From an uncultured Holdemania sp. (lineage in GTDB: Bacteria > Bacillota_I > Bacilli_A > Erysipelotrichales > Erysipelotrichaceae): a stretch of 64,000 nucleotides of DNA. Below, piece by piece: positions 1 to 53,499 of the stretch. Both the position numbers and the translations under genes were made by a program. The stretch spans positions 1 to 64,000 of the forward strand of contig CAJFOC010000024.1 in the NCBI GenBank assembly GCA_904395815.1. Reading direction: 5' to 3'. Positions within the stretch are counted from its first letter, which is position 1. The number at the start of each line of letters is the position of its first letter. Below the pieces are notes generated by a model. That model did no database searches. It worked only from the letters and a program-made list of their open reading frames with translations, and was not told the origin of the DNA.

Positions 1-49
1 TAAAAGAGTCGAAAAAAAAAGGGAATTCTGAGGAAAGATATTGTTAAAT

Positions 50-2593
50 AATAAGGAATCTTGTAAAATTGATCTGTGCTTAATCCGAAAAGTTTACTAA
101 ATACAATAGAACATTAATAAGGAATCTTGTAAAATTGATCTGTGCTTAATCACATTGACGCCAAGATAACACGAGCGCAAGAATAAGGAATCTTGTAAAA
201 TTGATCTGTGCTTAATCACAGGAAGGATGAAAAATTGAACCTTTGCGAATAAGGAATCTTGTAAAATTGATCTGTGCTTAATCTTATCGGCAAATTTGCG
301 CGTAAATACGTTGAATAAGGAATCTTGTAAAATTGATCTGTGCTTAATCGTCAACAGAGTCTTTATCTCGATTTACTGAATAAGGAATCTTGTAAAATTG
401 ATCTGTGCTTAATCCAGACCTTGATCGCGCCGCCACCCAGCGCCAATAAGGAATCTTGTAAAATTGATCTGTGCTTAATCGACGCTGGCAAACAGGCGAT
501 TTCTTCTTTTAATAAGGAATCTTGTAAAATTGATCTGTGCTTAATCGGGGTGTGATCGGGGTCATCGTAACAATCGAATAAGGAATCTTGTAAAATTGAT
601 CTGTGCTTAATCATCGCCTCGAAATAAAAAGACCCAGACGGAAATAAGGAATCTTGTAAAATTGATCTGTGCTTAATCGCCGCCCTCCATGTAGAAAGGC
701 TCGCCCTGAATAAGGAATCTTGTAAAATTGATCTGTGCTTAATCCACGTTGGCCTGCATGGTGCCGGTCGTGATAATAAGGAATCTTGTAAAATTGATCT
801 GTGCTTAATCTCAAGCCGTATCAGGAAGAGCAGGCCACCGAATAAGGAATCTTGTAAAATTGATCTGTGCTTAATCGGTCATGGTTGACGTCGTCCACTT
901 TTGTGGAATAAGGAATCTTGTAAAATTGATCTGTGCTTAATCCTGGCGGGACGGCTTGCACACGAACAAAAGAATAAGGAATCTTGTAAAATTGATCTGT
1001 GCTTAATCGAAGGGTGCGTGGTGATCGACAACCCGCGGAATAAGGAATCTTGTAAAATTGATCTGTGCTTAATCGACAGTACTCACTTTCCGCAGCCAAC
1101 GTGCAATAAGGAATCTTGTAAAATTGATCTGTGCTTAATCGCGCTTGCTTCGATTCCCAGTTTTTCATAGAATAAGGAATCTTGTAAAATTGATCTGTGC
1201 TTAATCATGTGTTAAAAAAAGCTGCTGAATTTGGAAAATAAGGAATCTTGTAAAATTGATCTGTGCTTAATCGGAAAATCTGGCTAAATTGGCTGACAAA
1301 AAAATAAGGAATCTTGTAAAATTGATCTGTGCTTAATCTTGCATCTTACGGTATGCCGGTTGGCGTTAATAAGGAATCTTGTAAAATTGATCTGTGCTTA
1401 ATCCAAATCGCCGTCGATGTGATGAAAGAACTGAATAAGGAATCTTGTAAAATTGATCTGTGCTTAATCGAATTCGAAAATGATTTTCAATTTTCATTGA
1501 ATAAGGAATCTTGTAAAATTGATCTGTGCTTAATCTGACATTACCGAGGAAATCGCAACAGTAGCAATAAGGAATCTTGTAAAATTGATCTGTGCTTAAT
1601 CCCATTTAGCATCCGTGTTACATAACTGTATAATAAGGAATCTTGTAAAATTGATCTGTGCTTAATCAAACCGTCATGGGATCGTGGTAAGCAGGCAAAT
1701 AAGGAATCTTGTAAAATTGATCTGTGCTTAATCTCGAATAAACCCGTCAGCTGAAATTTTTTTAATAAGGAATCTTGTAAAATTGATCTGTGCTTAATCC
1801 AGGATGTCCGCCTCTCCTGCCGCTTTATAAATAAGGAATCTTGTAAAATTGATCTGTGCTTAATCGAAAGCATTCCGGAAAGCTCTTCCTCCGAATAATA
1901 AGGAATCTTGTAAAATTGATCTGTGCTTAATCTTTTCTGCGCAAATCTGCACTAAATCTGAAAATAAGGAATCTTGTAAAATTGATCTGTGCTTAATCTC
2001 CATGTCGTAAAATGTTACACCAACCGCGAATAAGGAATCTTGTAAAATTGATCTGTGCTTAATCAAAGCATCCCGGAAAGCTCTTCTTCTGAGTAATAAG
2101 GAATCTTGTAAAATTGATCTGTGCTTAATCGAAGATCCTTTTTTAATCGTTCGATTTTGTCAATAAGGAATCTTGTAAAATTGATCTGTGCTTAATCGAT
2201 CTTTACTTAAACGATTTGATTCAGCGCAATAAGGAATCTTGTAAAATTGATCTGTGCTTAATCACGACGCGACGATCAGACAAGCGCTGATTGAATAAGG
2301 AATCTTGTAAAATTGATCTGTGCTTAATCGAAGAAATGGAGCGGTTATTGGCAAGAGCTAATAAGGAATCTTGTAAAATTGATCTGTGCTTAATCCAGCT
2401 CAATGTAGTAGCGTTCGTTCTGATTAATAAGGAATCTTGTAAAATTGATCTGTGCTTAATCCTCTGCCTGGATTGCATGAGCAACCTGGGCAATAAGGAA
2501 TCTTGTAAAATTGATCTGTGCTTAATCGTATCGATGGAATGTACAGCCAAATATCAAAATAAGGAATCTTGTAAAATTGATCTGTGCTTAATC
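50..2593. CRISPR. CRISPR array, 39 repeats / 38 spacers; repeat AATAAGGAATCTTGTAAAATTGATCTGTGCTTAATC (36 bp) as written on +; spacers mostly 30 nt (29 nt at 350 and 1339; 31 nt at 1866 and 2131)
   Basis: Repeat starts located by hand at 50,116,182,248,314,379,445...1303,1368...1830,1897...2095,2162...2558 with essentially constant 66-bp period; repeats look identical throughout, spacers are unique. Repeat and spacer sizes and imperfect terminal palindromy (GATTAAG...CTTATT on minus) fit type II best; subtype and transcription direction not established. Confidence 0.98.
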
Positions 2594-2645
2594 TATCGAC
2601 TAACGGAATCCTTACAGAGAATTTCCAGCTATACTTTATTAAAAA

Positions 2646-2680
2646 TACCCTCTTTACTGGATAGTCCAGTTTGGAGGGTA
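2646..2680 (-). terminator. Rho-independent terminator (minus strand)
   Basis: TACCCTC...CTGGA-TAG-TCCAG...GAGGGTA hairpin followed on minus strand by TTTTT; lies downstream of the minus-strand pepF/73-aa gene pair. Confidence 0.65.
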
Positions 2681-2730
2681 CATATCGATCGTCGCATTTT
2701 TTTCTTGATTTATCTGTCACAGACCCTTGC

Positions 2731-2961: not shown

Positions 2962-4725
2962 TTATCCCTGCATCAGCCGCTCGAATTCATTCAAGGTCTG
3001 TTCAAAATAGCGGAAGGCATCTTCATACACCTGCTCCTTACGCGGATCAGCTCCAGCCTCGATCAGCTGATCGATCGGAGCACAGCTGCCGCCACGGGTC
3101 AAAAAGCGCAGATAATCCTGTACATCCCCTTTAAGAATCCGCGAAGCGAAGGACAGCGCCACCGACATTCCTACGGTATATTTATAAACATAGAAGTTGT
3201 AATAGAAATGCGGGACAGAATAACATTTGTACTTCTCCAGCTCATGAACTTTCACCGCTGGTCCATAGTATTCCTGCGTCAGTTTCAGATAATATGAAGT
3301 CAGATCCGAAGAAGACAAAGCCTTGCCCTGCTGCAGCTGCTGGTGCAGCCACACCTCAAACTGAGCGAACATCGGCTGCCGGTACAGCGTCCCCACTAAC
3401 TGTTCCAGCATGTTGTACAGCAGGGAAGCCCGCATCGCTGGATCTTCGTTCTGCTGCAGCATGTACCGGTTCAGCAGCACTTCATTGACAGTAGACGCCA
3501 CTTCGGCCACAAAGATACGGTATTCCGCCAGCATCGGACGATTCGCCCGATGTGAAAAATAGGAATGCATGGAATGTCCCAGCTCATGAGCCAGCGTACT
3601 CAGCGAATCGTAACCGCCGGTAAAGTTGGTCAGAACAAACGGATTGGAGTCGTAGGTGCCCCAGGAATAAGCCCCGCCCCGTTTTCCCTGATGCGGATAG
3701 AAATCAATCCAGCGCTCAGAGCGGGCCCGTTTCAGCAGCGCCCGGTATTCCTCGCCTAACGGAGAGAGCGCCTGATCCAGAATTTCAAAACATGAATCCA
3801 GATCATAATGAGCCTCCACCGCCTGAACCAGCGGAACATTCAGATCGTAACTGGTCAGATCTTCCAAACCCATCCACTTCTTTTTCAGATCATTGTAGCG
3901 CCAGAAAGCGGCATGATATTTTTGGTTGGCCATGTCCAGTACCTGCTGAAACAAAGCCGGATCCGCCCCATCCTCGAACAAGCTGGCTTCCAGCGCGCCG
4001 GAAAAATGATGCAGCCGGGCCTGCAGCACCTGTCCCTGGGCATGACCGATCAGCGTGGAACAGAAAACGTTCTGATGGCGTCGATATTGCTCATAAAAGT
4101 TTTCGAAAGCCTGCCGGCGCACTTCGCGATCTTTATGATGCAGCAGCTGATTCATAATAGCCTGATTTAAAAATTCTTCCCGGCCCTCGACCATGACCGG
4201 CTGAAATTCCGGAACAAAGGCCTTGAATGTTTTTTCCGGATTCTGGAACAGATCCTTCATCTGCGCCAGCAGCTGTTCAGTCTGAGCATCCGGCCGGTGT
4301 GGAATCGTGCGGAAAAGTTCTTCAATCGGATAACGATAATCCGCGCAGTCTTCCGCTGACAGATACGTTTCCACCACTTTCTGATGTTCAATCAGTTCCT
4401 GATCGACAAACGTTGTCGCGGCAGCCACCTGGTTGATCAGTGCGGCGGAGCGGGCAAGATTCTGCTGAACCTGCGGGTCTTCCGGCTCCACATCCGCCCG
4501 CATCTGGGCGTATACGGCCACATTTTCACATTGGCGCTGCAAGGTTTCCTGCAGATCCATAAACTCAATGAAAGCCTCGCGGCTTTCGGTGATGACTCCC
4601 TGCCGTTTGACAAGCTGTTCCAGCAGCCGCCGGATTTCCGCTTCCGCGGCGTCAAACTGGCTCTGATCCGCAAACAATCCGCTCAGATCCCATGTATCCT
4701 GAACGGCAATTTCTTTTCTTTCCAT
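2962..4725 (-). CDS. pepF: oligoendopeptidase F, M3 family metallopeptidase
   Basis: 587 aa; HELGHSMHSYFS zinc-binding motif and M3-type architecture. Confidence 0.93.
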   Translation of the reverse strand: MERKEIAVQDTWDLSGLFADQSQFDAAEAEIRRLLEQLVKRQGVITESREAFIEFMDLQETLQRQCENVAVYAQMRADVEPEDPQVQQNLARSAALINQVAAATTFVDQELIEHQKVVETYLSAEDCADYRYPIEELFRTIPHRPDAQTEQLLAQMKDLFQNPEKTFKAFVPEFQPVMVEGREEFLNQAIMNQLLHHKDREVRRQAFENFYEQYRRHQNVFCSTLIGHAQGQVLQARLHHFSGALEASLFEDGADPALFQQVLDMANQKYHAAFWRYNDLKKKWMGLEDLTSYDLNVPLVQAVEAHYDLDSCFEILDQALSPLGEEYRALLKRARSERWIDFYPHQGKRGGAYSWGTYDSNPFVLTNFTGGYDSLSTLAHELGHSMHSYFSHRANRPMLAEYRIFVAEVASTVNEVLLNRYMLQQNEDPAMRASLLYNMLEQLVGTLYRQPMFAQFEVWLHQQLQQGKALSSSDLTSYYLKLTQEYYGPAVKVHELEKYKCYSVPHFYYNFYVYKYTVGMSVALSFASRILKGDVQDYLRFLTRGGSCAPIDQLIEAGADPRKEQVYEDAFRYFEQTLNEFERLMQG

Positions 4726-53273: not shown

Positions 53274-53499
53274 ACGGTTTTGTTTTATGGATTTCGGCAG
53301 TTCTGACGCGGTGAAAATGGATGCCTCAGCCTGTTGATAAAATTTCCTTTATTCATGACAGATACCTCTCAAACTGGGTCATCCCGTAAGGAGGGGATTT
53401 GAAAATAAGTATAGCTGGGAATGGATTCAGAAAATGGATCGAAAACCATAAAAGAGAGGAATACGCATGTCAGTGCCTGAGAATTGTAAAAGTCTTCAG

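Follow-up and report, generated by a model that had tools for sequence, protein, structure and literature searches.

Spacers 28 and 31 of the CRISPR array in the analysed 64,000-nt stretch of DNA (the window) resemble each other more closely than expected by chance, and the pair is probably best read as two independent captures of one site, taken from two diverged copies of a gene. Spacer 28 (window 1866-1896, + strand, 31 nt, GAAAGCATTCCGGAAAGCTCTTCCTCCGAAT) is the leader-proximal and presumably newer member of the pair, and spacer 31 (window 2065-2094, + strand, 30 nt, AAAGCATCCCGGAAAGCTCTTCTTCTGAGT) is the older one. The coordinates and sequences given for both spacers in an earlier note on this DNA are exact, and its count of 26/30 identical positions, with differences at positions 8, 23, 26 and 29, was reproduced. 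The two spacers have a common PAM-side end, and at the PAM-distal end spacer 28 is longer by a single G.

Comparisons among all the spacers gave this pair a score of 18 and the next best pair a score of 6, whereas no score above 8 was reached in 100 shuffles. A chance resemblance of unrelated targets, or an assembly artefact, would fit with the lack of a protospacer and with the division of the host genome assembly into 63 contigs, and otherwise nothing speaks for either. Both are very improbable given the score relative to the shuffles, the different unique spacers that neighbour each member, and a longest exact run common to the two spacers of 14 nt.

The array and its cas locus

The array (window 50-2593, + strand) consists of 39 identical 36-nt repeats (AATAAGGAATCTTGTAAAATTGATCTGTGCTTAATC) separated by 38 spacers of 29-31 nt, 34 of which are 30 nt long. 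The only two 31-nt spacers (window 1866-1896 and 2131-2161) both start with GAA, which is too few cases to judge. The leader side of the array (window 1-49, + strand) lies within the 87 nt at the start of the window that exactly overlap the end of contig C1, which bears the cas genes. Upstream of the array, contig C1 carries cas9, cas1, cas2 and csn2 in this order, and the locus is a complete type II-A system with an adaptation module of Cas9, Cas1, Cas2 and Csn2. Cas9 (1220 aa) matches TIGR01865 (E=1.7e-159) and also PF18541 and PF13395, and Cas1 and Cas2 match the models TIGR03639 and TIGR01573 and are assigned to Cas1_II and Cas2_II by PADLOC. The Csn2 candidate is a 318-aa protein encoded after cas2 (L009:9398-10354 on contig C1, outside the window). 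It matches the PADLOC Csn2 model PDLC01597 over residues 7-271 (E=1e-13) and none of the NCBIfam and Pfam Csn2 models. An apparently intact Walker A motif (GPSSCGKST) is present in this protein, and ABC/AAA ATPase models also match it, weakly.

The tracrRNA is located upstream of cas9 (L009 about 4284-4412, contig C1). Its anti-repeat pairs with most of the repeat, forming a repeat:anti-repeat duplex of -37.7 kcal/mol, and terminator hairpins and a T-run follow in the + orientation only. On this evidence, the crRNA strand is the + strand of the window, with the leader at the csn2 end. Each spacer has its PAM side at the 3' end. Type II-A arrays gain new spacers at the leader; thus, spacer 1 should be the newest, and spacer 28 should be newer than spacer 31.

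The type II-A loci of Streptococcus thermophilus and S. mutans likewise have the gene order cas9-cas1-cas2-csn2, a leader beside csn2 and 36-nt repeats. The spacers of S. mutans are 30 nt long with occasional 31-nt ones, variable at the PAM-distal end (PMC8265633), and the same is observed here. In comparison with the Streptococcus models, Cas9 of this locus differs in its length, its best PDB sequence matches being Cas9 chains of about 1050-1150 aa, and the PAM is represented by one protospacer only. This protospacer belongs to spacer 14 (window 943-972, + strand), which matches 30/30 to G003:C14:38354-38383 in a sister species of the genus, and its 3' flank GTAACATG is the sole PAM datum. 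The target is a phosphoadenosine phosphosulfate (PAPS) reductase-like gene in a prophage that carries integrase, RecE, RecT, terminase, portal and head genes. The exact match of spacer 14 to a prophage of the genus indicates that the array records phages of the genus.

Silent differences and the coding strand

The four differences between spacers 28 and 31 all share a codon phase and change no residue in either frame +2 or frame -2. Frame +2 reads SIPESSSSE in both spacers. The earlier note was right that the differences are silent, but not that they are silent in one frame only, since the antisense frame -2 shares its wobble positions with frame +2 and reads SEEELSGML in both spacers. In a simulation, sets of four random substitutions were introduced and the six frames were scanned for silence: 4.5% of the sets changed no residue in one or more frames, and 2.2% fell in one codon phase. 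The former figure, for silence arising by chance in some frame, counts against the reading of two captures, and the silence of the differences alone is moderate evidence.

Codon usage cannot choose between the two strands. The posterior of the antisense frame was 0.33 for spacer 28 and 0.51 for spacer 31 with the host genes as training, and 0.63 and 0.73, respectively, with the genes of a prophage of the genus as training. Type II-A spacers prefer the template strand (59%, PMC8482600), a preference that leans slightly towards the strand chosen by the earlier note. The proposal that the pair reveals the coding strand together with a peptide of nine residues is nevertheless not upheld, and SIPESSSSE falls as a bait because its antisense counterpart is just as likely. 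This calls for caution with spacer-based baits in general: wobble-only differences do not reveal the coding strand, as the antisense frame can be equally silent.

Origin of the spacer pair

The pattern of the differences, the invariant repeats, and the shared PAM-side end with a length difference of one base at the opposite end favour two acquisitions from one conserved gene in diverged relatives. The earlier note had proposed this without drawing on the repeats or the spacer ends, and its phage label is adopted by analogy with spacer 14. We infer that the Cas1-Cas2-Csn2-Cas9 machinery would have taken the same PAM-defined site of one protein-coding gene twice. The sources would be two mobile elements related to each other, with phages as the likeliest candidates, and their identity at the captured site would be about 87%. 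Spacer 31 would have been captured first and spacer 28 later, with two other captures between them, and purifying selection on the target gene may have kept the differences silent. The coding context is read from the pattern alone, because neither spacer gave a protospacer.

Two similar spacers would also result if a repeat-spacer unit were duplicated within the array and then mutated, and duplicated units are known in CRISPR arrays. However, the 39 repeats show 0 changes over 1404 nt, whereas four would have accumulated in one 30-nt spacer. With uniform in-array mutation, four changes would hit this spacer and spare the repeats with a probability of about 2e-7, and the identity of all the repeats makes in-array mutation very unlikely. 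In addition, the adjacent spacers were not duplicated together with the pair, the lengths of the two members are unequal (31 vs. 30 nt), and array DNA offers no reason for mutation to be silent in one codon phase. Duplication followed by mutation is thus hardly credible.

The number of same-site pairs expected is m(m-1)/2S, where m is the number of spacers from one phage family and S is the number of candidate sites. For a 40-kb genome, the expected number is 0.009 with m=10 and a 2-nt PAM, 0.15 with m=20 and a 3-nt PAM, and 2.2 with m=38 and a 4-nt PAM. With the PAM left open, a same-site double capture needs no special cause. The pair is ordinary CRISPR biology: a standard type II-A array has kept the trace of repeated meetings with elements related to each other. 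Acquisition in S. mutans P42S is primed or linked to interference, with repeat captures from phages that are already partly matched, and four mismatches likewise separate the native spacer 3 of S. mutans from its phage (PMC8265633). The new spacers of S. mutans P42S derive from sites near the old one, whereas here the identical site appears to have been retaken.

Two copies of a gene in a single mobile element, paralogous or repeated, would explain the shared site, the silent differences and the two captures equally well, and captures from such an intragenomic pair would look the same as captures from two elements. However, this origin requires an intragenomic near-duplicate, and we consider it improbable.

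Two captures from related elements may also have been causally linked. In this special case of the two-capture reading, a phage lineage hit by spacer 31 would have gained silent changes in the seed and escaped, and the site would then have been retaken as spacer 28. Counted from the PAM side, the differences at 23, 26 and 29 are at positions 8, 5 and 2, and the changed wobble positions comprise all of those in the seed vs. 1/7 of those elsewhere (chance 0.033-0.048, noticed post hoc). The order of capture also fits an escape, with spacer 28 being leader-proximal. Mismatches in the seed are those that matter for Cas9, and, if the seed rules hold, spacer 31 would probably not protect against the donor of spacer 28. 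The mismatches of acquired type II-A spacers in S. mutans are mostly located outside the seed (PMC8265633), which is in line with this weight of the seed. However, one change in the seed or the PAM is normally enough for escape, and a set of three seed changes and one distal change is more reminiscent of ordinary divergence. Escape followed by recapture is therefore rather unlikely, though it carries some weight. If true, the pair would be a fossil of CRISPR-driven silent escape, in which every silent seed position was changed and the escaper was recaptured. Under the broader reading of two captures, a target, if found, would make the pair a small record, in order, of how a single host met two sibling elements at the same site. 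It would also provide a natural experiment on whether this Cas9 is defeated by silent changes in the seed.

Protospacer searches and flanking palindromes

Searches for a protospacer of spacers 28 and 31 in viral contigs, GTDB genomes, phages, plasmids, and samples of the genus, family and order yielded none, and the check for homologous protospacers suggested in the earlier note was thus negative throughout these collections. The missing hit says little about the identity of the target, because the genus sample comprised three other genomes and close relatives of the gene targeted by spacer 14 were not found in the viral collection. Relatives of the terminase of the spacer-14 prophage are present in viral contigs, and these contigs showed no convincing spacer match. 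Exact and wobble-degenerate patterns of the pair, searched on both strands, had no match in the viral contigs or the GTDB genomes. Comparison of the spacers with the host genome outside the array gave no convincing match, comparison of the concatenated spacers with phages gave nothing, and literature searches on near-identical spacers yielded little.

Several weaker matches were inspected and set aside. A pattern relaxed to the peptide SEEELSGML had nine matches in genomes. Most of them are within long frames that belong to unrelated bacterial genes, with a DNA ligase and an ABC transporter apparently among these, and one of the nine is an open frame of 10 residues. A second pattern had one viral match, in an SbcC-like protein with LEEELSGMF, and this match and the nine in genomes were taken as chance. 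Allowing up to 2 mismatches in the family genomes gave 7 matches outside the host, all in short open frames and likewise taken as chance. The phage record MT836500 matches spacer 28 at 22/25 positions (E about 3) within a 996-aa SbcC-like frame reading RQEELSGEL, a match at the chance level and not a homologue. Matches with E values of 0.004-0.01 per genome (297 genomes) are also at the chance level; three of them fall in apparently one conserved housekeeping gene (IEEELSGME).

The trailer end of the array (window 2594-2700, no strand assigned) contains a palindromic element at about 2640-2690 that resembles a palindrome upstream of the tracrRNA gene on contig C1. Members of this palindrome family are located at window 2640-2690, C1:49976-50017, C62:27-84, C62:60255-60312 and window 53365-53422, and the core TACCCYCTTTACTGGA is present in four of them. 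The CRISPR-cas locus has one palindrome on either side, and another two are positioned ~60 kb apart on contig C62.
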